A DNA stretch of 64,000 nucleotides from Nannobrachium achirus. Lineage: Eukaryota; Chordata; Actinopteri; Myctophiformes; Myctophidae. The position numbers and the translations under genes were made by a program. The stretch lies in the NCBI GenBank assembly GCA_963921795.1, contig OY997649.1, positions 63,059,402 through 63,123,401 on the forward strand. The letters are read 5' to 3'. The notes below the pieces were generated by a model. It was not told where the DNA came from, searched no databases, and worked only from the letters and a program-made list of their open reading frames with translations. The first letter of the stretch is position 1; each line of letters begins with the position of its first letter. Positions 15,083 through 62,580 of the stretch are shown here, in pieces.

Positions 15083-15420
15083 ACATTGGCTGGATGAACA
15101 AGGTCTTTCAGAGAACCAATGTACGGTACACAGAATGATTGCACACATAACTTCAAACCATTAAAGATCACCATCACTTTATTTGCATTTGTAATGTCAA
15201 ACAGGACTGACTTTAGAACAGATTTATTGACACACAAGGTAAAGCACACGACAATACAGTCGACAATTAGTCAATGAAATCACATTTTATGTTGTGATTA
15301 TACATTTTAATGATGATGATCTATTTCTTTTCAAAATTGCTTGCACCAAAAGGGCAACTGAGATTTGGCTTTCAGGTCTTTATGCCGCACCCTCACTTTT
15401 TATAGTTTTATTCCCCCGCA
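15083..15420 (-). pseudogene. Decayed partial duplicate of the 3' end of the 23881-24795 gene
   Basis: The stretch 15150-15400 parallels 23690-23950: TTAAAGATCACCATCACTTT versus TTAAAGATCACAATCACTTT, then GTCGACAATTAGTCAATGA, CTATTTCTTTTCAAAA and AAAAGGGCAACTGAGATTTGG. The last segment corresponds to the final codons of the 304-codon gene (LKAKSHLPF). The upstream piece GGATGAACAAGGTCTTTCAG also occurs at 25706 and, diverged, at 22845. Coding similarity fades after about 15410, so this is a broken remnant just outside the hAT-bounded unit. Confidence 0.65.
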
Positions 15421-15922
15421 GTTCGGCGCTATATTATTATGGGTTCTCTTGCAGAGATTCTTGCAGTTTTTAAGTCTGCTAGCAATAACGCTTGTAATCA
15501 GGGCTCCAGGGTGCGACCTATTAGCTCGCATATGCGATCTAATTTCATAAAGTGCGAGTTAAAATTTAACCAGGTCGCGCCAGTGCGAGTTGAGTGCGTT
15601 GAGCAGCAGTGAGAAGAGGAGCGCTTTTTTTTCTCTTCTTGGCTCCGTCCGTTTTGTCAGTGCAGTAGTGGTGAAGGTGGATGGGGAATATGGTAGTTTT
15701 ATTTTTGAACAAATCAAGCGCTCGCTTTCTCTTGCCTGTGACGTCAACATCATGCTTGACTCTGTCCAGTCTGCACTGCAGCCGTGCAGCGCTGAGGGGA
15801 GCGCTCAGCAGCCAGTCAGCATTTACTGACGTTCTCCAGACTTAAACAATTTCGATTTTCTCAAAGAATAATCAACCGTTTTGAACAGGGCTCGCACTCT
15901 TTGGCCCTGTAGTGGAAAGCAG

Positions 15923-17449
15923 TCATGTCGTGTCCGATGAGAAGACCTTGGGGTATATCTCGCTGTAGTCTTCAACAAAATGCTCTTCCAGTCCCTCTCT
16001 GATGTAATCCGCCAGTTCTAAGTACTCTGTTTTGTTCTCAGCGGGTAGGATGATACTGGTCACTCCTGCGCGACGAGCAGCTATGGTCTTCTCCTTGATC
16101 CCCACTACTGGCAGTATTTTGCCGGTCAGTGACACCTCTCCTGTCATGGCTAAGTTGTGACGCACCGACTGGTTGGTTGCTAGAGACAGCAGTGCGGTGA
16201 CAATGGTGGAGCCGGCGTCTGGCCCGTCTTTGGGAGTTTCCCCATTCCCCCAGGGAATGTGCAAATGCAGGTGGGAGTTGACCAGGAATTTGTTATCAGG
16301 TTCCTTGGTCATGAGGAACGCTCTGGCAAAGGTCAACGCAACCTTTGCACTATCCTTCATCATGTCACCTAGCTGACCAGTCACCTCCAGGGACCCCTCC
16401 CCTTCTTTGTGCGCCGCGTGAGGACTGCGCAGCGATGTCTCAACAAACAGAAGGTTGCTGCCCATCTCGGTCCATGCCAGTCCCATGACCACGCCCGGTG
16501 GAGTGACGTCGTACATGCGGTCGAACGTATACACTGATTTGCCAACATAGTTCTGCAGGTTATCGGGTGTGACGGTTACCTTGCTATCATCTCCGCTGGC
16601 GATACCGAACGCCACTTTGCGGAACACCGTCTCGATCTGTTTCTGTAGATTCCTGACTCCAGACTCTTTCCAGTTCTGTCTGATGAGCAGACTGAGGGCG
16701 TCCGAGGAGATGGAGGCCCTCTCCTCAGTGAGGCCGCACAGTGTACGCAGCTGAGGGACCAGGTAACGCTCTGCGATGGCAAGTTTCTCCTGTGCCACGT
16801 ATCCCGACACATGAATCATCTCCATCCTGTCCCTGAGAGGCTCTGGAATGGTGTCAACCAAATTGGCTGTACAGATAAACAACACCTTTGATAGGTCGAT
16901 GGGTACACCTAGGTAATGATCCAGGAAGTTGGCATTCTGCTCGGGGTCCAAAAGCTCTAACAGTGCTGAGGATGGGTGACCACGACCGATTTTGTCCACC
17001 TCATCTATGAGCACGAGAGGATTCTCTGTCTTGGTTTTCTTCAAGCACTGGATAATTTTCCCAGGCATTGCTCCTACATAGGTTCTCCTATGGCCTTTGA
17101 TCTCAGCCACATCAGTCATGCCTCCCACACTGAACCTGAAGTACTCTCTGTTGAGGGCTCTGGCGATGGAGCCGGCTATCGAGGTCTTTCCTACTCCCGG
17201 AGGGCCGTGGAAACACAAGATCCTCCCCTGGGTGGAACCACTCAGCTTACTGACTGCTATGAATTCCAAGATGCGTGTCTTGACGTCATCCATCCCATAA
17301 TGATCTTCTTCCAGAACGTCTTTGGCGGTGCTGTATGGCCTGGGGGCAAACCCTGTCAGCACCGGTGTTTCACTCAATAACGCCATGTCCAGGTTTTTAT
17401 ACATCTGTCGAGAACCAATGATCATCCTCATGCAGGTGGCTAATGCCAT
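15923..17449 (-). pseudogene. lonp1: Intronless LONP1-derived reading frame (mitochondrial Lon protease), catalytic Ser replaced
   Basis: An uninterrupted frame of 508 codons starts at an ATG in good context (AACATGG). It lacks introns across most of the AAA+ and protease domains, which suggests a retrocopy. In order: residues 1-20 are an N-terminal piece shared with the copy at 19337; 41 onward ([20 protein letters not shown]) is the start of the Lon AAA+ module; Walker A GPPGVGKT is at 82-89, pore loop YVGAMPG at 124-130, Walker [10 protein letters not shown] at 145-153 and sensor FICTAN at 191-196. The P domain starts near [13 protein letters not shown] (311-323). The catalytic serine motif, PKDGPSAG in Lon, reads PKDGPDAG with Asp at 411; the catalytic lysine in GIKEK (452) is kept. 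Three residues are lost at [10 protein letters not shown], and PVGGIKEK reads PVVGIKEK. The whole N-terminal substrate domain is missing. The match to LONP1 rather than peroxisomal LONP2 is clear ([19 protein letters not shown]). A proteolytically dead copy is expected; transcription is unknown. Confidence 0.85.
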
Positions 17450-17738
17450 GTTGCTCTATACTAGAGGATCTCACAGTTCAGTAAACCTTTAACCTTTAAA
17501 TCAGTAAACTCAGTAGGCTCTGCCTTGGCTCTGACGCGAGTTCGTTTCTCTCCGGCAAAACCTCTGAAAGGACTTCTTATAAGACTCTACAATACCTAAT
17601 CCTCTATCTGGGGTGCTGTGCTTATGTGCTTAACTTAGTTATTGCTATGCCTGGCTCAGGACTTCTTCGGTGTTCAACTGGAATAGCTGTGACAACTGGC
17701 CCAGATCTAACTGAACAGCTGGTTTATATGCGTTCTGG
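17450..17738. other. Duplicated 5' flank of the LONP1 copies, then unidentified sequence
   Basis: 17450-17520 (TCTAGAGG-like, GATCTCACAGTTCAG, AAATCAGTAAACTCAGTAG) repeats the flank at 19338-19410, so the duplication includes sequence upstream of the ATG. 17521-17738 is unidentified. Confidence 0.6.
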
Positions 17739-17760
17739 TGACGTCATATTGATGACGTCA
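17739..17760. promoter_or_regulatory. Pair of perfect CRE palindromes
   Basis: TGACGTCA at 17739-17746 and again at 17753-17760, separated by 6 bp, about 290 bp upstream of the LONP1-derived ATG on the minus strand. TGACGTCA is the consensus CREB/ATF site. Related repeats at 37383 and 47197 carry the diverged form TGATGTCA, so the pair is probably part of a repeat rather than a dedicated promoter. Confidence 0.45.
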
Positions 17761-18135
17761 CTCTGACCTGTATGCCGTTCAATCCTGGTTGCCATTGACT
17801 CCTCTAACAAATGGCTACTGTCTATGACGGTAGTCCCATATGACATGATGGAATGGACTATCTCCATATATAGTGTTCTCCACTTCTCCATGTTAGGCCA
17901 AGCGGGTTCGCTCCATATCTCCATGTATAGGCCTAAATGCCCGACGTTGAGCTTGGCAACGAAACGTTCCTAACAGCCGCCCCCATATTTACTTTAGAAA
18001 ATATGTTAGATTCTAAGAACGTTTCGAGTACCGGTTTGATACAGAAGTGTGTAAGCGCTACACTTCTGGAATCCTGTGCGTCGACTTTAAAGTCGGATCT
18101 CGGCCTAACAACGTTATCTGGCCGCCCCATTACAG
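17739..18135 (+). repeat. Interspersed repeat family X (TCTCCATATATAG module), plus copy
   Basis: Contains TGTCTATGACGGTAGTCCCA, TATGACATGATGG, CTATCTCCATATATAGTGTT, CCCGACGTTGAGCTTGGCAA and TGGAATCCTGTGCGTCGACT. Nearly all recur, some inverted, at 38845-39595. The function and transposon class are unknown. Confidence 0.65.
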
Positions 18136-18647
18136 CTTATTTGTTGCGCTTCCTCTCCTTGCTTGATGATTTCCACCTGGCCGCCCCGTGTTGGATTTAG
18201 GAATTAGCTGAAGTAGGATTCAAGTTGTTACGATGTTCAAGTTGGATATCGTTCTGTCTCTATGACCTCTCAACATGTTGGTGGTAATAACTCTCCGATT
18301 TCTCAACATGTTGGACTGAATCATCCTGCCGTCCCATGAAGGGTCTTGCCACCTCATGAAACGTTTGCCGCCTTCTTGCTGCACTTTCCTCCCAGAAGGT
18401 AGTGTCCTCGTGAGGGTTCATATCTGGCCGCCCCGTGCCAGATCGGGGGAGGGAAATGCACGCTCTACATCCCTTAACTTCTTGCTCCGGCCGCCCCGTG
18501 CCAGCCAACTTCCACTCGGCTGCTTCCACCCTTCTTTATTTACCTTTACCCTTTTTTCCTTATCTTCTTCCTTTCTTCGTTTTTTGTACTTTTGTCCTCC
18601 TTTGCAGTGTAATTTTCCCCCTTTTCTTAGTCTTGTCTTGTGTATTC
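18136..18647. other. Non-coding sequence with GGCCGCCCCGTG repeats
   Basis: The 12-mer GGCCGCCCCGTG occurs at about 18180, 18426 and 18489; a CAACATGTTGG palindrome recurs near 18270 and 18304. A pyrimidine-rich stretch follows to the LONP1 fragment. No coding frame recognised. Confidence 0.5.
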
Positions 18648-19337
18648 GCTATGAATTCCAAGATGCGTGTCTTGACGTCATCCATCCCATAATGATCTTC
18701 TTCCAGAACGTCTTTGGCTCGGTCCAGTGCTAAGTTCTCCTCACTGTTTGTCCCCCCAGGGCATATTGGTCAGCCAGTCCAGATAGTTACGGGTTATACT
18801 GAACTCCAAAGAGTGGTTGTCTAACAGTCCCAGTTTGTTCAATTCCTCATTGATAACATCCATGATGTGTTGGGGGACAGTTCTGTCTTTTAGCCTCTGT
18901 CTAAACCTATCCTCAATGGCGTCCTTGTCCTCCTTCTCCAAAACCAGCTTTGGCTTAATGATCTTGAGTACCTTTTGTAACAGGTCCTGTGTGTGCGTCT
19001 GTTTGACCTCCTCCGGCACCGGCATGGCTGCGAGAGCACTCACTTGTGCTCCTCTGCCACCTTCCCCAGACTCCACGGCTCCAGAACCCGCACTCTCCCC
19101 TCCATCCTCACCCGAGAACCCGGCTCCACTGGTGTGGTTGCTGTGTGCCCTTGCCCTGTCTATGTTGAACTGGAAGTGACTAACCGGGGTGAGGAACCCT
19201 GTTTCCCCGCCGGAAACACCTGTTGCCACCCGGGAGCAGCGGCGAGGTCTCCCCGTGAGCCTCCAGCCTGCTTTTTGTATATTCAGGTTATACATCTGTC
19301 GAGAAGCAATCATCCTCATGCAGGTGGCTAATGCCAT
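18648..19337 (-). pseudogene. lonp1: LONP1 N-terminal fragment with internal deletion and frameshift
   Basis: The ATG at 19335-19337 opens a 198-codon frame ([18 protein letters not shown]...). Residues around [20 protein letters not shown] resemble the acidic/glycine-rich segment after the LONP1 mitochondrial presequence. At about [11 protein letters not shown] the frame jumps to the coiled segment [20 protein letters not shown], then [20 protein letters not shown] and [20 protein letters not shown], which directly precedes the Lon AAA+ domain. About 300 residues of the N-terminal substrate domain are therefore missing. At WLTNMPWG one extra G in a G-run shifts the frame into a stop (18741-18743). 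In the other frame the sequence continues [20 protein letters not shown] to EFIA, then similarity ends abruptly at 18648. The last 71 bp (18648-18718) are identical to 17256-17326 of the downstream copy. Confidence 0.85.
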
Positions 19338-19410
19338 GTTGCTCTAGTCTAGAGGATCTCACAGTTCAGGAAACCTTTACCTACACTTTAAATCAGTGAA
19401 CTCAGTAGTA

Positions 19411-20049
19411 TACACTGAAGTACTTGATTAGAAGGTATAGTAACTTAAGGTATTATGCCATGTACTGATTTTCCATTAAGGAACATTGAGCTTGTATATC
19501 AGCTATTTTTGCTATTTTTATGACCTTCTCTGACTTAAAAGTTTAAATCTACCTATGAAGATGGATTCTGCTTTCAATGGGAATGGAGTGGTTTCTTGCC
19601 ATTTGCGAGTTTCTACAAAATACGCTCCATTCTCCATAAAATTAGAAAGGCAAAATGTAAAGAAACCTGTGGAAAAAATGCATTTGCATGTCATTTTCAG
19701 GAAAAGAGCAGGAAATACTGAAGAGTTGAAACAGGACATCTGTAGTAATTACGTACTTGATTAGACCCCATGTAAAAATGGAACCAAATGCACCAGTTTG
19801 GGTAATTTCTTCATGTAAGGTACAGTATTGAAAAGTAGTAAAGCCAGTAGTGAAAAGGCACAACGTGCATTTATGAATTAACAACTAGAAAGACAACACT
19901 TCTAGCTTAACTTTTATTAAGGCTAAATGTGAATTAATAGCATCATTTTTATCATTTCCTCTTTTTAATATGAGATAAGGAACTCTAGTACCAACTTTAT
20001 AATAACTGTTCCAGCGTGGGGGCTGGATGGCTGGCATAGTGGTCATATA
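19411..20049. other. Non-coding sequence inside the hAT-bounded unit
   Basis: Carries a half palindrome at 19486-19512 (ATTGAGCTTGTATATCAGCT). No gene recognised; the short open frames lack splice or family support. Confidence 0.5.
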
Positions 20050-20815
20050 CACTGCTCAAAAAAATAAAGGGAACGCATAATCATTGCAATGTAACTCCAA
20101 GTCAATCACACTTTTGGGATATCAACCTGGCCAGTTAGGAAGCAACACTGATTATGAATCAGTTTCATCTGCTGTTGTGCAAATGGAAAAGACAACAGGT
20201 GAAAATGAGGCAATTTGCAAGACAACCCCTAAAAAAGGAATGGTTTTGCAGGTGGTGGCCACAGACCATTTGCCTGTCCTCATCCTTTCTGGCAGATTTT
20301 TGGTTAGTTTTGGATTTTGCCAGTGCCCTGACCACTAGAGGTAGCATGAGGCAGTATCTGCAACCCACAGAAGTTGCTCAGGTAGTGCTGCTCATCCAGG
20401 ATGGCACATCAATGCGCACGGTGGCAAGAAGGTTTGCTGTGTCTCCCAGCACAGTGTCCAGAGCATGGAGGCGATACCAGGAGACAGGCCAGTACACCAG
20501 GAGACGTGGAGGGGGCCGTAGGAGGACAACAACCCAGCTGCAGGACCGCTATCTGGTCCTTTGTTCAAGGAGGAACAGGAGGAGCACTGCCAGAGCCCTA
20601 TAAAACGACCTTCAGCAGGCCACTAATGTGAATGTTTCTGCTCAAACTGTGAGAAACAGACTCCATGATGGTGGTATGAGGGCCCGACGTCCACAAGTGG
20701 GGCCTGTGCTCACAGCCCAACACCGTGCAGCCCGATTGACATTTGCCAGAGAACACATGTACTGGCAGGTCTATGTTGGGTTTTTTGGGTGTTCCCTTTA
20801 TTTTTTTGAGCAGTG
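20050..20815 (+). mobile_element. Internally deleted Tc1-like transposon
   Basis: Terminal inverted repeats CACTGCTCAAAAAAATAAAG with GGAAC, and the complement GTTCCCTTTATTTTTTTGAG with CAGTG. A TA dinucleotide flanks each end (20048-20049 and 20816-20817), as for Tc1/mariner. A transposase start at 20347 encodes [20 protein letters not shown] and then [20 protein letters not shown], the first helix-turn-helix of Tc1 transposases. It is frameshifted after about 85 codons, and the DDE catalytic domain is missing. At 766 bp it is about half the usual length, so it is non-autonomous. It is nested inside the hAT-bounded unit. Confidence 0.88.
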
Positions 20816-20849
20816 TATTTACTTGCTTACTATTTAATTGCGACCATCA

Positions 20850-21060
20850 GGTCAGTCAGTCAGTCAGTCCGTCCGTCCGTCCGTCACGTCACGTCACGTC
20901 ACGTCACGTCACGTCACACTTTTGCCCTACTCTTATATCCGGAAACGTTGCCCCTATCCATGCCAACTTTGCACACACACTCCTTGGATGGCAACTCACA
21001 ACCTCCAGCCCTGACATGCTCTCACATGGCCCTTTTCTAGCGCCGCCATGAGGCACCATG
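20850..21060 (-). repeat. Interspersed repeat family Y, inverted copy
   Basis: CAGT, CCGT and CACGT tandem tracts (20853-20918), then ACTTTTGCCCTACTCTTAT, CCCCTATCCATGCCAACTTT and TCTAGCGCCGCCATGAG. This is the reverse complement of 6240-6440 with substitutions. Confidence 0.65.
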
Positions 21061-21608
21061 ATTATTGCAAAACACATTTTTGGACACTGCCCCTGCATGT
21101 TTCATCCCTAGTAAAGGAATCCCATAGGACTCCGTTCAAAGCAATCAAAGCATAACAAAATAACAAAAAAGAAAAAAACAATTATCACAAATATAAAACA
21201 CTGTAGGCCAATATAGAGTAGAATACTCTTTTTTTCTAGTCCCCCCCCCCCCCCCCCAATATATGTTATTTCTTAATAATTATTATTATTAGGCTAATGA
21301 TACTGTCAGCACACAGTCACAGACGGAGCACATAGTAAATAAACTTGGCTAGGTTGGCGTGATACAAGTGTGGTGTAGTTGTGGATTGGACTTTTTTAAT
21401 TCGCTTGCATCGCGATGCAGTCGCTATTCTGCATCGATGCGGTGACGTGACATAATCGACTATAGCCTACGTTTGTTGATTTTCCTCAACGGTGATGCGA
21501 TATAGCTTAGCAACATGCTAACGCTAAATCAACCGGACCTATCATGCCGTTCCATCTGCCTCTTATTATTAGACAGAAGTCACAGAACAGAGCTTTCTCG
21601 CATTTATT

Positions 21609-21675
<67 letters not shown>

Positions 21676-22587
21676 GAGGCAGTCACAGACAGTTCTCAAA
21701 GCGGAGAATACAATAATCATCTGTGATTTTACAACACTGTTTCCCAAGCACTGGGTTGGGACCCATTTGTGGGTCGCGAAAACATTTTTATGGGTCCCTT
21801 AACGTTTGGTTTCCTACATTTAGTTTTGTATCATTTAAAAACTTTAGAAAAACATTTCATGATTTAAAATACATAAATGATTTTTTCTAATTTCATCAAT
21901 AAATAAAAATCTAAGAAATTATATTAGAAAACACAGGCCTATTTAAGAAGTACTGAAAATAGCCGATCTACAAGCTCACAGCGTGCATTGTGTCTCTGTC
22001 TATGCCTGTCTATTAAAGACAAGTCCCTAAATATTATAGTAGGATATTCAATTCCTATAACTATCTGTAGGCTATATTATATTTTTATTATTATTTTTTC
22101 ATTATATCTAGAACAATCGGTGGTAGGCAACAAGTCCAATTTTGCTGCATTATTGTATATGAGTAAGTCACTGTTTTACCCAGTTAGAATCGTGCAAATT
22201 CACCCGACCCGACCCGAAAAAGGTTTTCACCTTGGGCCTGTTTGCATGTCTGTATATCATTATCGAGGCATTCAACAATGTTATCGAATATCGAAGGCTC
22301 TCCTAATATCACACAGCCTTAGTGCTGACCTATTTTGTCAACTACTGCTGCTCATGCAGAGAAACCTAAAGTTCAGACTAAAATATTTAGTAAAATATCA
22401 AGTTTGGGTCATTGCTTTACATCAAGGCAAACCTATGGTATGGAAATGAACAACTATCATCACCAGCATGATAAGGCTATGTATTAATACCACGCTATAC
22501 AAAGAAAAAGATGGTGCTACCTAATTTCTGGTGGTGCTACCTAATGAAAAGGTAGGTGGCACCAGTGCTACCTGTGAAAAAGTTAGT
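21061..22587. other. Non-coding right part of the hAT-bounded unit
   Basis: Contains poly(C) at 21241-21257, (GA)n at 21613-21672, a GTTGGGACCC hAT-like fragment near 21755-21790 and a half palindrome at 21955-21992. GGTAGCACCA-like subterminal repeats lie close to the right terminus (22515-22575). No transposase frame is recognised. Confidence 0.55.
21613..21672. repeat. (GA)n microsatellite
   Basis: Pure GA tract of about 60 bp. Confidence 0.97.
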
Positions 22588-22798
22588 CTGGAGCCCTGCT
22601 TGTAATGTATAATTTTATAGACACAGATAAACAAATAAAAAGACAATTGAATTGCGGAACTTGATGACAAAATAGCAGACATAATTCTCCAATTCTCTTG
22701 GTTCCTAGTACTGTTACAAAGATAACATAACTGTAGCTGGGCTAATCAGAGGGAACATACAGTAGCTCTATGCCGTCTGCTTTCTTGTCTTCATGTGT

Positions 22799-37373: not shown

Positions 37374-38844
37374 TGTACGGGAGTGATGTCAGTGTGATGT
37401 CAGCGAGTTGTGACATCACTTCCTGTACGGGGCGGCTACACGAAATGTGGATAACACTATATATGGAGATCAGTGGCGATGCGTGCCCCAAGGGACCGGA
37501 CCTTCGGGGACGCACCACCCCCCCCCCCCCCCGTGCGTGCACATGCGCGGAAATTGTATGCCTTTTTCATTCTTCTTTTTCTTTTACAAAACTGGTTAAC
37601 AATGAACAGCAGACTGTACAAGGCAAGCACGCTGGGTAGGCTTAACCTAATTAGCACTACACAGTACACACATACTCCAAACCAAGACTTTCAAACCAAT
37701 GCCAATATAAGGATTAAATAGATGTGCGCTGCTGACAGACAGAGCCACACAAGACACAACCAGCGCAACCAATCGAAACGTCCATTTAACATAGCGCGCT
37801 TTACAAAGCAAAACGCACTGTCCACCATCATGTAACAACACTAGCTATCAATGTAAAGAAAGACCACGTCCAGAAAGACCCACATTAAATAGACAAAAAC
37901 AGGCCTAAGTGTATCAATCTGTCTTTCAATGTTATGTGAGATACATAAAGTGGTTCCTGTGTAAATAAGCTGTAAGGTTTACTAGGATCTCCTTTTAGCT
38001 GACCAGTGATTTGTACTGTCATGAAACTGTACCTTTTCCAATTGCAAACTTCTAATACATTCTTCAATGATCAATCAATGGAAATTAAATGCACAGCGGC
38101 ATATCCAGCAATATAAATTAATTCAGTTTCTCTCACCAATGAAACATCCTCCTGTCCTTTTGTGTGAATTTCTCAAAGATGGGTTCATAAAGCTATCATT
38201 CCTTTTAAGTTCTGTCCATCTTTTCATAAAACAGTCTTCTTGAAAAAGGCAACGATAATAATAAATCCACAGCGTTCACTCCAGCTGCAGCCATGTCGCG
38301 TCTGTTTACTTTACAAGTTTCACGTGTAGTGCATAGTGAGTGTGAAACTTGCTTGTTGTTCCACTCCAAGTCCCGGAAAAGCCGTGTTGTGATTGGCCAG
38401 TAGTCACTTAACTCATTCTGATTGGTGGTTGAACGTGGGTGTTCCGTATACCCGAGACCAGAGCCCTCAAAATATGATTGGTTGATCAAACTGACAATCC
38501 ACACCAAGGCTTGTATTATGGGGAACTGGCTCAGGGAGTTCTGGAAGACCCTGCGCGTGAGGGAGAGTAATCTGCGCAGAGACTCTGTTATTTTGGCTGT
38601 TATTTTCCCCAGCACACAAGCACTCCCTATGCACAGAACTTGGGGAAGAAACAACTACAACTAGTATAGCGAGCGAAACAGTGCAGTTTAACAGATTACC
38701 AACACAAATAATTGTAATTATTTTAATAAAAATAATAAAAAATAAAAATATATTTTTTATTTAAAAATACAAATATTATTTTCTTTCTTCTGAGGATCCC
38801 TGGGTCTTCTCTGAATACCCTGAAGGTCCTGAAAATTCGCCACT
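37374..38844. other. Family X module and non-coding stretch
   Basis: 37376-37500 holds GTACGGGAGTGATGTCAGTG and TAACACTATATATGGAGATC, both family X modules. Poly(C) is at 37508-37522. 37700-38790 looks largely unique, with GTGATTGGCCAG motifs near 38390. No exon recognised. Confidence 0.5.
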
Positions 38845-39595
38845 GATGGAGATAGTCCAGTCCATCATGTCATATGGGACTACCGTCATAGACAGTAGCC
38901 AAAAGAGAAGGATACACAAGACTAAGAAAGACAAAAAAAGAGAAGAATAAAAAAGAAAAAAAAAGGAGGAGGAGGATAAAGATACCAAAAGGAGAGAGAA
39001 GAAAGGGTGGATGAGGTACAATGTGTCTCAGAAAAGAAATTGTAACAAGGAGGTGGCAACGGGGCGGCTAGATAAAGTTATTAGGCCTGGATCCGACTTT
39101 AAGTCGACGCACAGGATTCCAGAAGTGTAGTGCTTATTCGCTCTTGTATCAAACTGGTACTCAAAACGTTCTTAGAATTTAATATATATTTTCTAAAGTA
39201 AATATGGGGGTGGCTGTGAAAAAAAGAGAAGAATAAAAAAGAAAAAATAGGAGGAGGAGGATAAAGATACCAAAAGGAGAGAGAATAAAGGGTGGATGAG
39301 GTACAATGTGCAGTATCCTCCTTGTCAAGCTCGACGTTGGGCATTTGGACCTATACATGGAGAAATGGAGCGAACCTGTGTGGCCTAAACATGGAGATGT
39401 GCTACAGAATGACTCATATATGGGCATAAAAAGTATGTCATGTGACATCACTTCCTGTACAGACAGTCAGACAGACAGCCATTGACTCCGGCCTAACAAT
39501 GGCTACTGTCTATGACGGTAGTCCCATATGACATGATGGACTGGACTATCTCCATATATAGTGTTCTCCACATCTCCATGTTTAGGCCCTATCGC
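38845..39595 (-). repeat. Family X, rearranged copies
   Basis: Inverted pieces of 17739-18135: GTCCAGTCCATCATGTCATA, GGGACTACCGTCATAGACAG (38850-38900), ATCCGACTTTAAGTCGACGC (39090) and GCTCGACGTTGGGCATTTGG (39330). A direct piece is at 39490-39580. A roughly 85-bp purine-rich block (GATAAAGATACCAAAAGGAG) is duplicated at 38940-39022 and 39225-39310. Confidence 0.6.
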
Positions 39596-48531: not shown

Positions 48532-48948
48532 CAGGGGTCTTCAAAGTTTTCAGGCCAAAGACCCCTTAGCTGAGAGAGAGATGAAGCAGGGACCCCCTCT
48601 GCATATTGTATAAATGTGTGATGCAGATTTTCATCAATTCCACAGATAGATTCATAGACTTGTTTGACAGCACTGTCATCAGTTGTCATGTTGGATTCGT
48701 GTTTTTAGTTAACTTGAACTTTGTATTCTGTACTTGGTCTACTCTTTTTTACCTCTAAACCAAACCTATTTGCCAAACATAGCCGATCTACAAGCTCAAC
48801 GCCTCACAACGCGAGGCGTTGAGAGCTTGTAGATCGGCTATTTTTGTCTAAAGTTCTCCTCAGAATAGGGATGTAAGTGTTCAAGTTGTTAATTTAAAAG
48901 AATGATCGTACCACAAAGATTTGGAGGACCCCCTGTTGAAGACCCCTG
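48532..48948. mobile_element. Small hAT element carrying palindrome P8
   Basis: Perfect 13-bp terminal inverted repeats: CAGGGGTCTTCAA (48532) and TTGAAGACCCCTG (to 48948). The flanks carry an exact 8-bp duplication, CCCTAAGG (48524-48531 and 48949-48956). The 417-bp interior has no transposase and holds the palindrome at 48780-48845. Confidence 0.88.
48780..48845. repeat. Recurring palindrome, copy P8
   Basis: Left arm ATAGCCGATCTACAAGCTC then AACGCCTC; right arm GAGGCGTTGAGAGCTTGTAG then ATCGGCTATTTTT. The inner AACGCCTC differs from CACAACGC in other copies, and both arms carry the same change. Confidence 0.9.
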
Positions 48949-53124: not shown

Positions 53125-56100
53125 GACATAATATCCATTCAGCTCAGGGAACAACAGACATAATATCCATTCAGCTCAGGGGACAACAGACATAATATCC
53201 ATTCAACTCAGGGGACAACAGACATAATATCCATTCAGCTCAGGGGACAACAGACATAATATCCATTCAGCTCAGGGAACAACAGACATAATATCCATTC
53301 AACTCAGGGAACAACAGACATAATATCCATTCAGCTCAGGGAACAACAGACATAATATCCATTCAACTCAGGGGACAACAGACATAATATCCATTCAGCT
53401 CAGGGAACAACAGACATAATATCCATTCAACTCAGGGAACAACAGACATAATATCCATTCAGCTCAGGGAACAACAGACATAATATCCATTCAGCTCAGG
53501 GGACAACAGACATAATATCCATTCAGCTCAGGGGACAACAGACATAATATCCATTCAACTCAGGGGACAACAGACATAATATCCATTCAGCTCAGGGGAC
53601 AACAGACATAATATCCATTCAGCTCAGGGAACAACAGACATAATATCCATTCAACTCAGGGAACAACAGACATAATATCCATTCAGCTCAGGGAACAACA
53701 GACATAATATCCATTCAACTCAGGGAACAACAGACATAATATCCATTCAGCTCAGGGAACAACAGACATAATATCCATTCAGCTCAGGGGACAACAGACA
53801 TAATATCCATTCAGCTCAGGGAACAACAGACATAATATCCATTCAGCTCAGGGAACAACAGACATAATATCCATTCAACTCAGGGAACAACAGACATAAT
53901 ATCCATTCAGCTCAGAGGACAACAGACATAATATCCATTCAGCTCAGGGGACAACAGACATAATATCCATTCAGCTCAGGGGACAACAGACATAATATCC
54001 ATTCAGCTCAGGGAACAACAGACATAATATCCATTCAGCTCAGGGAACAACAGACATAATATCCATTCAGCTCAGGGGACAACAGACATAATATCCATTC
54101 AGCTCAGGGAACAACAGACATAATATCCATTCAACTCAGGGAACAACAGACATAATATCCATTCAGCTCAGGGAACAACAGACATAATATCCATTCAGCT
54201 CAGGGAACAACAGACATAATATCCATTCAGCTCAGGGGACAACAGACATAATATCCATTCAGCTCAGGGAACAACAGACATAATATCCATTCAGCTCAGG
54301 GAACAACAGACATAATATCCATTCAACTCAGGGAACAACAGACATAATATCCATTCAGCTCAGGGGACAACAGACATAATATCCATTCAGCTCAGGGGAC
54401 AACAGACATAATATCCATTCAGCTCAGGGAACAACAGACATAATATCCATTCAGCTCAGGGAACAACAGACATAATATCCATTCAGCTCAGGGGACAACA
54501 GACATAATATCCATTCAACTCAGGGGACAACAGACATAATATCCATTCAACTCAGGGAACAACAGACATAATATCCATTCAGCTCAGGGAACAACAGACA
54601 TAATATCCATTCAGCTCAGGGAACAACAGACATAATATCCATTCAACTCAGGGGACAACAGACATAATATCCATTCAGCTCAGGGAACAACAGACATAAT
54701 ATCCATTCAGCTCAGGGAACAACAGACATAATATCCATTCAGCTCAGGGAACAACAGACATAATATCCATTCAGCTCAGGGAACAACAGACATAATATCC
54801 ATTCAACTCAGGGGACAACAGACATAATATCCATTCAGCTCAGGGAACAACAGACATAATATCCATTCAACTCAGGGGACAACAGACATAATATCCATTC
54901 AACTCAGGGGACAACAGACATAATATCCATTCAGCTCAGGGAACAACAGACATAATATCCATTCAGCTCAGGGGACAACAGACATAATATCCATTCAGCT
55001 CAGGGAACATTCAGCTCAGGGAACAACAGACATAATATCCATTCAGCTCAGGGAACAACAGACATAATATCCATTCAACTCAGGGAACAACAGACATAAT
55101 ATCCATTCAGCTCAGAGGACAACAGACATAATATCCATTCAGCTCAGGGAACAACAGACATAATATCCATTCAGCTCAGGGAACAACAGACATAATATCC
55201 ATTCAGCTCAGGGGACAACAGACATAATATCCATTCAGCTCAGGGAACAACAGACATAATATCCATTCAGCTCAGGGAACAACAGACATAATATCCATTC
55301 AACTCAGGGGACAACAGACATAATATCCATTCAGCTCAGGGAACAACAGACATAATATCCATTCAGCTCAGGGAACAACAGACATAATATCCATTCAACT
55401 CAGGGAACAACAGACATAATATCCATTCAACTCAGGGGACAACAGACATAATATCCATTCAGCTCAGGGAACAACAGACATAATATCCATTCAGCTCAGG
55501 GGACAACAGACATAATATCCATTCAGCTCAGGGAACAACAGACATAATATCCATTCAGCTCAGGGGACAACAGACATAATATCCATTCAGCTCAGGGAAC
55601 AACAGACATAATATCCATTCAGCTCAGGGGACAACAGACATAATATCCATTCAGCTCAGGGGACAACAGACATAATATCCATTCAGCTCAGGGAACAACA
55701 GACATAATATCCATTCAGCTCAGGGAACAACAGACATAATATCCATTCAGCTCAGGGGACAACAGACATAATATCCATTCAGCTCAGGGAACAACAGACA
55801 TAATATCCATTCAGCTCAGGGGACAACAGACATAATATCCATTCAGCTCAGAGGACAACAGACATAATATCCATTCAGCTCAGGGGACAACAGACATAAT
55901 ATCCATTCAGCTCAGGGGACAACAGACATAATATCCATTCAGCTCAGGGAACAACAGACATAATATCCATTCAGCTCAGGGGACAACAGACATAATATCC
56001 ATTCAGCTCAGGGAACAACAGACATAATATCCATTCAGCTCAGGGAACAACAGACATAATATCCATTCAGCTCAGGGAACAACAGACATAATATCCATTC

Positions 56101-59100
56101 AGCTCAGGGGACAACAGACATAATATCCATTCAGCTCAGGGAACAACAGACATAATATCCATTCAGCTCAGGGAACAACAGACATAATATCCATTCAGCT
56201 CAGGGGACAACAGACATAATATCCATTCAGCTCAGGGGACAACAGACATAATATCCATTCAGCTCAGGGAACAACAGACATAATATCCATTCAACTCAGA
56301 GGACAACAGACATAATATCCATTCAACCCTGGGGACAACAGACATAATATCCATTCAGCTCAGGGGACAACAGACATAATATCCATTCAGCTCAGGGAAC
56401 AACAGACATAATATCCATTCAGCTCAGGGGACAACAGACATAATATCCATTCAGCTCAGGGAACAACAGACATAATATCCATTCAGCTCAGGGGACAACA
56501 GACATAATATCCATTCAGCTCAGGGGACAACAGACATAATATCCATTCAGCTCAGGGAACAACAGACATAATATCCATTCAGCTCAGGGAACAACAGACA
56601 TAATATCCATTCAGCTCAGGGAACAACAGACATAATATCCATTCAGCTCAGAGGACAACAGACATAATATCCATTCAGCTCAGGGGACAACAGACATAAT
56701 ATCCATTCAGCTCAGGGGACAACAGACATAATATCCATTCAGCTCAGGGAACAACAGACATAATATCCATTCAACTCAGGGAACAACAGACATAATATCC
56801 ATTCAGCTCAGGGAACAACAGACATAATATCCATTCAACTCAGGGAACAACAGACATAATATCCATTCAACTCAGGGGACAACAGACATAATATCCATTC
56901 AACTCAGGGAACAACAGACATAATATCCATTCAGCTCAGAGGACAACAGACATAATATCCATTCAGCTCAGGGGACAACAGACATAATATCCATTCAGCT
57001 CAGAGGACAACAGACATAATATCCATTCAGCTCAGAGGACAACAGACATAATATCCATTCAGCTCAGGGAACAACAGACATAATATCCATTCAGCTCAGG
57101 GGACAACAGACATAATATCCATTCAGCTCAGGGGACAACAGACATAATATCCATTCAGCTCAGGGAACAACAGACATAATATCCATTCAGCTCAGGGAAC
57201 AACAGACATAATATCCATTCAGCTCAGGGAACAACAGACATAATATCCATTCAGCTCAGAGGACAACAGACATAATATCCATTCAGCTCAGGGGACAACA
57301 GACATAATATCCATTCAGCTCAGGGGACAACAGACATAATATCCATTCAGCTCAGGGAACAACAGACATAATATCCATTCAACTCAGGGAACAACAGACA
57401 TAATATCCATTCAGCTCAGGGAACAACAGACATAATATCCATTCAACTCAGGGAACAACAGACATAATATCCATTCAACTCAGGGGACAACAGACATAAT
57501 ATCCATTCAGCTCAGAGGACAACAGACATAATATCCATTCAGCTCAGGGAACAACAGACATAATATCCATTCAACTCAGGGAACAACAGACATAATATCC
57601 ATTCAGCTCAGGGAACAACAGACATAATATCCATTCAGCTCAGGGAACAACAGACATAATATCCATTCAACTCAGGGAACAACAGACATAATATCCATTC
57701 AGCTCAGGGAACAACAGACATAATATCCATTCAGCTCAGGGAACAACAGACATAATATCCATTCAGCTCAGGGAACAACAGACATAATATCCATTCAGCT
57801 CAGAGGACAACAGACATAATATCCATTCAGCTCAGGGAACAACAGACATAATATCCATTCAGCTCAGGGAACAACAGACATAATATCCATTCAACTCAGG
57901 GAACAACAGACATAATATCCATTCAGCTCAGGGAACAACAGACATAATATCCATTCAACTCAGGGAACAACAGACATAATATCCATTCAGCTCAGGGAAC
58001 AACAGACATAATATCCATTCAGCTCAGGGGACAACAGACATAATATCCATTCAGCTCAGAGGACAACAGACATAATATCCATTCAGCTCAGGGGACAACA
58101 GACATAATATCCATTCAACTCAGGGAACAACAGACATAATATCCATTCAACTCAGGGGACAACAGACATAATATCCATTCAACTCAGGGAACAACAGACA
58201 TAATATCCATTCAACTCAGGGAACAACAGACATAATATCCATTCAGCTCAGGGAACAACAGACATAATATCCATTCAGCTCAGGGAACAACAGACATAAT
58301 ATCCATTCAGCTCAGGGGACAACAGACATAATATCCATTCAGCTCAGGGAACAACAGACATAATATCCATTCAGCTCAGGGAACAACAGACATAATATCC
58401 ATTCAGCTCAGGGAACAACAGACATAATATCCATTCAACTCAGAGGACAACAGACATAATATCCATTCAACTCAGGGAACAACAGACATAATATCCATTC
58501 AGCTCAGAGGACAACAGACATAATATCCATTCAGCTCAGAGGACAACAGACATAATATCCATTCAGCTCAGAGGACAACAGACATAATATCCATTCAGCT
58601 CAGGGAACAACAGACATAATATCCATTCAACTCAGGGAACAACAGACATAATATCCATTCAACTCAGGGAACAACAGACATAATATCCATTCAGCTCAGG
58701 GAACAACAGACATAATATCCATTCAGCTCAGGGAACAACAGACATAATATCCATTCAGCTCAGAGGACAACAGACATAATATCCATTCAACTCAGGGAAC
58801 AACAGACATAATATCCATTCAACTCAGGGAACAACAGACATAATATCCATTCAACTCAGGGAACAACAGACATAATATCCATTCAACTCAGGGAACAACA
58901 GACATAATATCCATTCAGCTCAGGGGACAACAGACATAATATCCATTCAGCTCAGGGAACAACAGACATAATATCCATTCAGCTCAGGGAACAACAGACA
59001 TAATATCCATTCAGCTCAGGGAACAACAGACATAATATCCATTCAGCTCAGGGGACAACAGACATAATATCCATTCAACTCAGGGGACAACAGACATAAT

Positions 59101-62100
59101 ATCCATTCAGCTCAGGGGACAACAGACATAATATCCATTCAGCTCAGGGGACAACAGACATAATATCCATTCAGCTCAGGGGACAACAGACATAATATCC
59201 ATTCAGCTCAGGGGACAACAGACATAATATCCATTCAGCTCAGGGAACAACAGACATAATATCCATTCAGCTCAGAGGACAACAGACATAATATCCATTC
59301 AACTCAGAGGACAACAGACATAATATCCATTCAACCCTGGGGACAACAGACATAATATCCATTCAGCTCAGGGGACAACAGACATAATATCCATTCAGCT
59401 CAGGGAACAACAGACATAATATCCATTCAGCTCAGGGGACAACAGACATAATATCCATTCAGCTCAGGGAACAACAGACATAATATCCATTCAGCTCAGG
59501 GGACAACAGACATAATATCCATTCAGCTCAGGGGACAACAGACATAATATCCATTCAGCTCAGGGAACAACAGACATAATATCCATTCAGCTCAGGGAAC
59601 AACAGACATAATATCCATTCAGCTCAGGGAACAACAGACATAATATCCATTCAGCTCAGAGGACAACAGACATAATATCCATTCAGCTCAGGGGACAACA
59701 GACATAATATCCATTCAGCTCAGGGGACAACAGACATAATATCCATTCAGCTCAGGGAACAACAGACATAATATCCATTCAACTCAGGGAACAACAGACA
59801 TAATATCCATTCAGCTCAGGGAACAACAGACATAATATCCATTCAACTCAGGGAACAACAGACATAATATCCATTCAACTCAGGGGACAACAGACATAAT
59901 ATCCATTCAACTCAGGGAACAACAGACATAATATCCATTCAGCTCAGAGGACAACAGACATAATATCCATTCAGCTCAGGGGACAACAGACATAATATCC
60001 ATTCAGCTCAGAGGACAACAGACATAATATCCATTCAGCTCAGAGGACAACAGACATAATATCCATTCAGCTCAGGGAACAACAGACATAATATCCATTC
60101 AGCTCAGGGGACAACAGACATAATATCCATTCAGCTCAGGGGACAACAGACATAATATCCATTCAGCTCAGGGAACAACAGACATAATATCCATTCAGCT
60201 CAGGGAACAACAGACATAATATCCATTCAGCTCAGGGAACAACAGACATAATATCCATTCAGCTCAGAGGACAACAGACATAATATCCATTCAGCTCAGG
60301 GGACAACAGACATAATATCCATTCAGCTCAGGGGACAACAGACATAATATCCATTCAGCTCAGGGAACAACAGACATAATATCCATTCAACTCAGGGAAC
60401 AACAGACATAATATCCATTCAGCTCAGGGAACAACAGACATAATATCCATTCAACTCAGGGAACAACAGACATAATATCCATTCAACTCAGGGGACAACA
60501 GACATAATATCCATTCAGCTCAGAGGACAACAGACATAATATCCATTCAGCTCAGGGAACAACAGACATAATATCCATTCAGCTCAGGGAACAACAGACA
60601 TAATATCCATTCAACTCAGGGAACAACAGACATAATATCCATTCAGCTCAGGGAACAACAGACATAATATCCATTCAGCTCAGGGAACAACAGACATAAT
60701 ATCCATTCAGCTCAGGGAACAACAGACATAATATCCATTCAGCTCAGAGGACAACAGACATAATATCCATTCAGCTCAGGGAACAACAGACATAATATCC
60801 ATTCAGCTCAGGGGACAACAGACATAATATCCATTCAACTCAGGGGACAACAGACATAATATCCATTCAGCTCAGAGGACAACAGACATAATATCCATTC
60901 AGCTCAGAGGACAACAGACATAATATCCATTCAGCTCAGGGAACAACAGACATAATATCCATTCAGCTCAGGGAACAACAGACATAATATCCATTCAACT
61001 CAGGGAACAACAGACATAATATCCATTCAACTCAGGGAACAACAGACATAATATCCATTCAGCTCAGGGAACAACAGACATAATATCCATTCAACTCAGG
61101 GAACAACAGACATAATATCCATTCAGCTCAGGGAACAACAGACATAATATCCATTCAGCTCAGGGAACAACAGACATAATATCCATTCAGCTCAGGGGAC
61201 AACAGACATAATATCCATTCAGCTCAGAGGACAACAGACATAATATCCATTCAGCTCAGGGGACAACAGACATAATATCCATTCAACTCAGGGAACAACA
61301 GACATAATATCCATTCAACTCAGGGGACAACAGACATAATATCCATTCAACTCAGGGAACAGACATAATATCCATTCAGCTCAGGGAACAACAGACATAA
61401 TATCCATTCAGCTCAGGGAACAACAGACATAATATCCATTCAGCTCAGGGGACAACAGACATAATATCCATTCAGCTCAGGGAACAACAGACATAATATC
61501 CATTCAGCTCAGGGAACAACAGACATAATATCCATTCAGCTCAGGGAACAACAGACATAATATCCATTCAACTCAGAGGACAACAGACATAATATCCATT
61601 CAACTCAGGGAACAACAGACATAATATCCATTCAGCTCAGAGGACAACAGACATAATATCCATTCAGCTCAGAGGACAACAGACATAATATCCATTCAGC
61701 TCAGAGGACAACAGACATAATATCCATTCAGCTCAGGGAACAACAGACATAATATCCATTCAACTCAGGGAACAACAGACATAATATCCATTCAACTCAG
61801 GGAACAACAGACATAATATCCATTCAGCTCAGGGAACAACAGACATAATATCCATTCAGCTCAGGGAACAACAGACATAATATCCATTCAGCTCAGAGGA
61901 CAACAGACATAATATCCATTCAGCTCAGGGAACAACAGACATAATATCCATTCAGCTCAGGGAACAACAGACATAATATCCATTCAGCTCAGAGGACAAC
62001 AGACATAATATCCATTCAGCTCAGGGAACAACAGACATAATATCCATTCAGCTCAGAGGACAACAGACATAATATCCATTCAGCTCAGGGAACAACAGAC

Positions 62101-62580
62101 ATAATATCCATTCAACTCAGGGAACAACAGACATAATATCCATTCAACTCAGGAGACAACAGACATAATATCCATTCAGCTCAGGGGACAACAGACATAA
62201 TATCCATTCAGCTCATGGGACAACAGACATAATATCCATTCAACTCAGGAGACAACAGACATAATATCCATTCAACTCAGGAGACAACAGACATAATATC
62301 CATTCAGCTCAGGGAACAACAGACATAATATCCATTCAACTCAGGGAACAACAGACATAATATCCATTCAACTCAGGGAACAACAGACATAATATCCATT
62401 CAACTCAGGAGACAACAGACATAATATCCATTCAGCTCAGGGGACAACAGACATAATATCCATTCAGCTCATGGGACAACAGACATAATATCCATTCAAC
62501 TCAGGAGACAACAGACATAATATCCATTCAACTCAGGAGACAACAGACATAATATCCATTCAGCTCAGGGGACAACAGAC
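53125..62580. repeat. Giant minisatellite: ~295 copies of a 32-bp unit
   Basis: Unit ATTCAGCTCAGGGAACAACA then GACATAATATCC. Units vary mainly at two places: GCTC or ACTC, and GGGA, GGGG, GAGG or, near the end, GGAG and ATGGG. Rare events mark positions: a 16-bp partial unit at about 55010, AACCCTGGGG units at 56321 and 59329, and a 29-bp unit at about 61350. No frame, spacer or gene lies inside. Higher-order duplications are described in the findings. Confidence 0.98.

Follow-up and report, generated by a model that had tools for sequence, protein, structure and literature searches.

A LONP1 retrogene inside a hAT element of Nannobrachium achirus: probable movement of the loaded element and possible uptake from a DNA circle

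Can a cut-and-paste transposon of a vertebrate take up sequence derived from a host gene and move on with it? The question is raised by a 7.1-kb unit in the myctophid fish Nannobrachium achirus, located in a stretch of 64 kb, referred to here as the window (C12:63059402–63123401 of the 1.66-Gb assembly), copies of its parts having been sought in the same assembly. An initial annotation of this DNA had described the unit as bounded by a perfect 11-bp terminal inverted repeat (TIR) and a perfect 8-bp target-site duplication (TSD) and as holding two LONP1-derived pieces and a nested Tc1; gene carriage by a hAT transposon was suggested, with insertion of LONP1 into an older hAT copy as the alternative. 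The results presented below make it very probable that a hAT element carried the LONP1 cargo and moved with it. The fuller reading is offered tentatively: the hAT may have taken a retrogene and its flanks from an extrachromosomal circle and been transposed as a unit of 7–27 kb, and the gene may be a new one, derived from LONP1 without the N domain or the protease serine and kept open under selection at a third locus, on C1.

One hAT copy split by its cargo, and a second loaded copy

Both boundaries of the unit proved exact: the 11-bp TIR CAGGGCTCCAG occupies 15499–15509 and, inverted, 22588–22598, and the 8-bp TSD CTTGTAAT stands directly outside both TIRs (15491–15498 and 22599–22606). An exact outer 8-bp direct repeat accompanies just 3 of the 57,272 inverted 11-mer pairs of the window, namely the 7.1-kb unit, the element at 48532–48948, and a pair (13226/34749) within a 126-bp inverted pair of a dispersed repeat. 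The two LONP1-derived pieces and the nested Tc1 were likewise recovered, and the unit is composed as follows:

15491–15498: left TSD CTTGTAAT
15499–15821, plus strand: left hAT part with the TIR at 15499–15509; 323 bp common to native hAT copies
15815–15821: GTCAGCA, left-hand member of the 7-bp duplication where the cargo entered
15822–15922, plus strand: cargo stretch preceding LONP1 piece B; 15886–15909 within it belongs to segment Z
15923–17449, minus strand: LONP1 piece B with AAA+ and Lon protease domains, open frame, catalytic Ser replaced by Asp
17450–17516, minus strand: 5′ untranslated region (UTR) of LONP1 piece B, repeating ~19342–19408
17517–18647, minus strand: presumed long terminal repeat (LTR) retroelement fragment with a purine tract, a TGTTAGG start near 17973, and cAMP response element (CRE) and TATA motifs
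~18648–19343, minus strand: LONP1 piece A, N-terminal part without the N domain, frameshift near 18755
19344–19419, minus strand: 5′ UTR of LONP1 piece A and the first bases upstream of it
19418–20046, plus strand: segment X; query 19531–20002 (472 bp) matched at full length
20047–20818, plus strand: nested Tc1, internally deleted, with 28/28 bp identical ends
20819–21304, plus strand: segment Y, which holds a dispersed repeat and directly precedes Z in C1
21305–22598, plus strand: right hAT part with the TIR at 22588–22598; 21305–21311 is the right GTCAGCA copy
22599–22606: right TSD CTTGTAAT

The cargo, 15822–21304, comprises 5,483 bp and is flanked on either side by a 7-bp duplication of hAT sequence, GTCAGCA, that is present once in native copies of the element. 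Left-end copies were sought with window 15499–16000 as the query, 40 of 445 first-look candidates being scored. No match but the window's own extends beyond query base 324 (window 15822) and, therefore, the hAT's own sequence ends at 15821. An identity of at least 99% was reached only by the window (100%) and by a copy on C5 (99%), both of them loaded, the other 38 showing 93% or less. Concerning the six native loci cut out (L023–L028), in L024, L027 and L028 base 15821 continues directly into the sequence following 21311—GCAGCCAGTCAGCACACAG with a single GTCAGCA—and L023 exhibits the same continuation with GTTAGCA in place of GTCAGCA, while L026 is contiguous across the break point by BLAST coordinates. 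L025 is without 15789–15821, yet complete, with 1,539 bp between its termini and the TSD GCTGTAAA on both sides. Since native copies are contiguous at this place, the unit at 15499–22598 represents one non-autonomous hAT copy, split at a single point by the cargo.

Other readings of the ends and parts were discarded. The termini do not stem from separate insertions, both halves being complementary parts of one native element. A macro-transposon of two neighbouring hATs, considered because of the terminus-like CAGGGCTCGCACTCTTTGGCCCTG at 15886–15909, fails because that sequence belongs to segment Z and occurs in C1 without a hAT. A small nested hAT, suspected at 21736–22173, is no insertion of this unit, the stretch being found in native copies, too.

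The assignment to hAT is based on short TIRs combined with an 8-bp TSD, the latter being CTTGTAAT in the window, ATGTACGT on C5 and GCTGTAAA at L025, and the 11-bp TIR being present in all three. No hAT transposase was seen in 20 frames of the window compared with Pfam nor, by eye, in the C5 frames of at least 110 amino acids, an autonomous partner not having been searched for. The TIR pattern had no match in the genome-contig database; in viral contigs the TIR patterns gave 0 and 1 matches, the single one bearing no further likeness to the hAT element. Diverged copies of one dispersed repeat (15087–15378 and 22799–22887/23681–23913) flank the unit in the window.

The second loaded copy is located on C5 (C5:49299001–49348400 examined). 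This unit of 26,783 bp has the same TIRs, with ATGTACGT before the left and after the right terminus; its left hAT part ends after, and its right part starts at, the same base as in the window. Its cargo of ~25 kb shares the LONP1, X and Tc1 segments with the window unit. Substitutions between the two units amount to 2/323 in the left hAT part, 7/1259 in the right one and 4/472 in X (0.5–0.9% over hAT parts and X), 0/333 in the Tc1 part, 11/683 in LONP1 A and 30/777 (3.9%) in LONP1 B; the native L025 exhibits 31/318 differences from the left hAT part. The flanks are unrelated: 300 bp on each side of the window unit, compared with 568 and 633 bp beside the C5 unit, yielded only a 12-bp chance match. 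Because the break, the cargo and the Tc1 are shared but the perfect TSDs and the flanks differ, the loaded element appears to have transposed. The split hAT, the duplication, the second copy and the intronless cargo, with transposase presumably supplied in trans, together lead to the above conclusion, held with considerable confidence, that a hAT carried its LONP1 cargo and moved with it. The initial annotation's suggestion of gene carriage is thus borne out by a unit with the same ends, break, LONP1 and Tc1 and its own perfect TSD, and copies with the same ends, which it had proposed to look for, exist both as the native hAT family and as the C5 unit, the latter also holding LONP1. The LTR fragment at 17517–18647, the exact hAT/cargo junctions and the other genomic copies were absent from that annotation.

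The C5 unit has its own peculiarities. Its LONP1 is inverted relative to the window, contiguous over the boundary of the window pieces A and B, decayed at the 3′ end, and interrupted by a nested hAT-like element (C5:49341626–49342858) with TAGAGTTCTCAA termini and the 8-bp TSD ACGTCAAC. Segment X is split by other sequence, segment Y is also present, and the Tc1, with 1,924 bp, is a longer form of the 772-bp Tc1 of the window. A satellite of ~1.55–1.58-kb units in ~9 tandem copies, at about C5:49324861–49338911, is absent from the window copy. Upstream of LONP1, ~3.1 kb of short tandem repeats (C5:49344399–49347501) contain 24 CArG-type CC(A/T)6GG motifs, the whole 64-kb window having 4.

The C1 locus and the route of entry

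A third locus, C1:11.2478–11.2570 Mb, holds the cargo segments over ~9 kb in the order X-Y-Z-LONP1, of which the window order, Z-LONP1-X-Y, is a circular permutation. Segment X as the query found full-length matches at three places—the window, C5 and C1—its first ~214 bp being a dispersed repeat. Identity between C1 and the cargo reaches 92–97% for LONP1 and 82–83% for X. Y and Z, the two ends of the cargo, abut in C1, although the Y side rests on a short match; LONP1 adjoins X in the window and C5 units, each copy being rearranged at that junction. No hAT ends occur in the 30 kb examined at the C1 locus, where just four matches of 28–31 bp to a common repeat were found, and the Tc1 site is empty.

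As a side observation, a 5.4-kb stretch lies in C1 between Z and LONP1 (C1:11249960 to ~11255460), and at the far end of this stretch ~30–45 bp from the LONP1 side of Z, including the palindrome-like CAGGGCTCGCACTCTTTGG, occur again.

Since the C1 order is a circular permutation of the window order, entry through a DNA circle is suggested: the segments are permuted relative to the source, and the ends of the cargo are adjacent there (on the Y side judging from the short match). We regard a circle as the somewhat favoured form in which the cargo entered the hAT, a route that is likely, short of proof. The history would then have begun with a non-autonomous member of a multicopy hAT family that took in a LONP1 retrogene with flanking DNA. 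A source locus like that in C1 would have given rise to a DNA circle, linearised at the Y/Z boundary and joined to the ends of a staggered break within the hAT. With its ends intact, the loaded element would then have been mobilised at least once by a hAT transposase supplied in trans, and the copies would have been reshaped later, the C5 one by inversion of LONP1 and by a satellite array, that of the window by deletions, by duplication and partial replacement of LONP1, and by the arrival of the LTR fragment.

The strongest competitor concerns just the entry step: template switching (gap filling or FoSTeST) could have copied the cargo in as linear DNA, and the permuted order would then go back to a source locus duplicated in tandem. 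Template switching is the published model for both single-copy and multicopy Pack-TIRs (PMC8277862), and the search for a tandem source was confined to the 30 kb examined. Against it, the ends of the cargo abut in C1, as would rarely be the case for a fragment taken at random from a tandem array; we consider this route doubtful, albeit one to be taken seriously. That C1 is itself derived, its X-Y-Z-LONP1 being what remains of a hAT unit after loss of the ends, might be argued from the changes that C1 has of its own, such as the 5.4 kb between Z and LONP1; with Y and Z contiguous, the Tc1 site empty and hAT remnants absent both from the Y/Z junction and from the surrounding 30 kb, this is improbable.

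Carriage and movement of the cargo by the hAT, as concluded here, also have to be set against histories in which the loaded element never transposed. If LONP1 and the other segments had simply fallen serially into an old hAT, the cargo would be expected to sit within a pre-existing element, as it indeed does, with its 7-bp duplication; to that extent the alternative of the initial annotation, LONP1 inserted into an older hAT, is right for an earlier step, after which the loaded element moved. As a complete account, however, nested insertion is contradicted by C5, which shares the break, LONP1, X, Tc1 and hAT halves at 0–1.6% divergence (3.9% for LONP1 B) while having its own TSD and unrelated flanks; moreover, no exact repeat of at least 9 bp surrounds a smaller LONP1 insertion in the stretches compared. 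Only an assembly error at the C5 unit could rescue this account, which deserves very little credence. Duplicated blocks are often long and rearranged inside, as both units are, but a segmental duplication as the means of spread between C12 and C5 is hardly tenable, since similarity ends at the hAT termini, the perfect 8-bp TSDs differ and the flanks share nothing beyond the chance match.

The LONP1 retrogene and changes specific to the window

Both LONP1 pieces are on the minus strand, piece B (15923–17449) scoring 774 bits to human LONP1. The cargo LONP1 is intronless, and a parent with introns is present at ~C1:23.292–23.310 Mb, several of its exons being 95–100% identical to human; the LONP1 copy is thus a retrogene. 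At the window copy, no flanking repeat of the retrocopy was found. The description of the cargo as LONP1-derived pieces therefore holds as far as LONP1 is concerned but falls short, the cargo being a retrogene together with flanking DNA. Retrogene copies in the assembly are those of the window, C5 and C1, and the search with the B block revealed no fourth long one. Parts of B have matches of 68–89% on C17, C24, C10 and C3, possibly relatives or older fragments, and a weak single-exon LONP1 match (77%) was seen on C20. In viral contigs, one stretch fitted the LONP1 pattern and none was a relative.

The C1 retrogene has 678 open codons (C1:11247887–11249920; L048–L050). The N domain is missing, the alignment of piece A to the full-length human chain skipping from about residue 119 to residue 381, with a weak first stretch (8.7 bits). 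The parent and human have GPSAGC where C1 and the window have GPDAGS, a site that was not found in C5; the catalytic Ser of PKDGPSAG, retained in the parent, is thus Asp in window B and C1, unlike in an active Lon. Judged by its sequence, the C1 frame is possibly a new protease-dead relative of LONP1.

With columns of local identity below 60% left out, which lowers the nonsynonymous rate, the ratio of nonsynonymous to synonymous rates (dN/dS) against the parent is 0.16 for C1 (537/678 codons), 0.13 for window B (430/510) and 0.16 for C5 (384/488). Among the retro copies it is 0.91 for C1–B, 0.48 for C1–C5 and 0.77 for B–C5. The lineage thus seems to have been long constrained and lately relaxed, because an unconstrained copy with ~0.35 synonymous difference to the parent should show far more amino-acid change. 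It may also be that the constraint acted in an unsampled intermediate parent. Positive selection was rejected for B versus C5, the 8 synonymous and 21 nonsynonymous differences over 258 codons being as expected without selection. Of the 126 residues at which human and 17 prokaryotic Lon proteins all agree (the latter from 19 lon loci in genome contigs, L018 and L020 being left out), 7 are changed in window B. At 1.3–2% neutral change, its frame would have survived with a chance of 2–8% if 0.12 indels are assumed per substitution and of 48–61% if none are, so that the open frame of B is by itself weak evidence.

Specific to the window is REARRANGEMENT, pieces A and B sharing 71 bp at 100% and the 5′ UTR region at ~90%. 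Of the sites that tell the copies apart, 9 place B with the parent and away from C5 and C1, and 3 and 2 favour the other groupings; B thus appears to derive in part from elsewhere than the remainder of the unit. The fragment between A and B, which we take from its motifs to be an LTR retroelement, is absent from the C5, C1 and parental regions examined. It directly precedes the 5′ UTR of piece B, and its CRE- and TATA-bearing LTR-like part could, going by these motifs, serve as a promoter of that piece. A second copy of the retroelement, cut up and partly inverted, is found at 38846–39588, both copies having GGGGCGGCC motifs, and the Tc1 at 20047–20818 includes pieces of the transposase helix-turn-helix.

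Elsewhere in the window, a probable hAT (37471–38845; TIR CAGTGGCGA, TSD ATGGAGAT) is inserted into the second LTR copy, a 417-bp hAT-like element with the 13-bp TIR CAGGGGTCTTCAA and TSD CCCTAAGG occupies 48532–48948, and a 9.5-kb satellite array of 32-bp units spans 53125–62580.

Relation to known gene-carrying elements

Pack-TIRs are known in animals: the survey by Tan et al. (2021) counts 370 in 100 genomes, 208 of them hAT and 8 in zebrafish, and mentions four multicopy ones in reference genomes, of which frog has three and alligator one, with Ssk-FB4 in flies in addition (PMC8277862). The initial annotation thus overstated how little gene capture by hATs is known in vertebrates. As in the published cases, most of which are hATs, host gene sequence is found between hAT termini with TSDs; the differences consist in the size of the cargo (5.5 kb and ~25 kb), in its nature as a retrogene with flanks, and in the multicopy state. 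It is the size, the multicopy state, the retrogene cargo and the permutation that are unusual here. The survey considered inner sequences of 100–5,000 bp (10,000 bp in human gave no more) and discarded intronless copies of multi-exon genes (PMC8277862). On both flanks the present unit shows 10 bp or more of the termini of one element, but its inner sequence of 5,483 bp (~25 kb in C5) lies outside that range, its cargo is an intronless copy of a multi-exon gene, and no unique parental copy with at least 90% identity and a length ratio of 80–120% corresponds to it.

MER20 of human is a hAT, too. ARF6 in MER20, with 3,585 bp the largest human case, is likewise a retrogene that lies nearly entirely within a DNA transposon, and its authors allow for later retroposition into MER20; the accessible text of PMC8277862 describes no second loaded copy, whereas two are present here. 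Ssk-FB4 of Drosophila resembles the present case in that a near-whole coding gene occurs in a TIR element at several sites with distinct TSDs; it differs as a probable Mutator-like element (MULE) carrying the parental introns and ascribed to fork stalling and template switching (PMC8277862), the cargo here being intronless and the element a hAT. With regard to circles, the serial translocation of cattle KIT via circular intermediates (Durkin et al. 2012, as cited in PMC9527254) offers a parallel in that a gene-bearing fragment moved. In cattle the circle entered a chromosome; here it apparently entered a transposon that carried the cargo on. The KIT circles were reportedly recognised by their permuted order. 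In Ac/Ds composite or macro-transposons, hAT ends lying far apart mobilise the intervening DNA, but these are two neighbouring elements, not the complementary halves of one hAT as here. Antifreeze genes of polar cod have been proposed to have hitchhiked with flanking miniature inverted-repeat transposable elements (PMC13011446). No report of a LONP1-bearing transposon or of a circle-fed hAT capture was found in the open-access literature among the matches listed.

In this case a vertebrate DNA transposon would have carried a gene-bearing fragment from one chromosome to another, and a single genome shows a source-like locus as well as loaded and unloaded copies. Because the filters of the survey would miss this unit with their 5-kb limit and the removal of intronless cargo, larger units of this kind may have escaped counting. 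Apart from this, the LONP1 retrogene with its altered catalytic site offers a lead for mitochondrial biology. The permuted order connects gene capture by transposons with circular DNA in a concrete way, and circles, if the proposed route is true, would be a supply line turning ordinary cut-and-paste elements into gene carriers.

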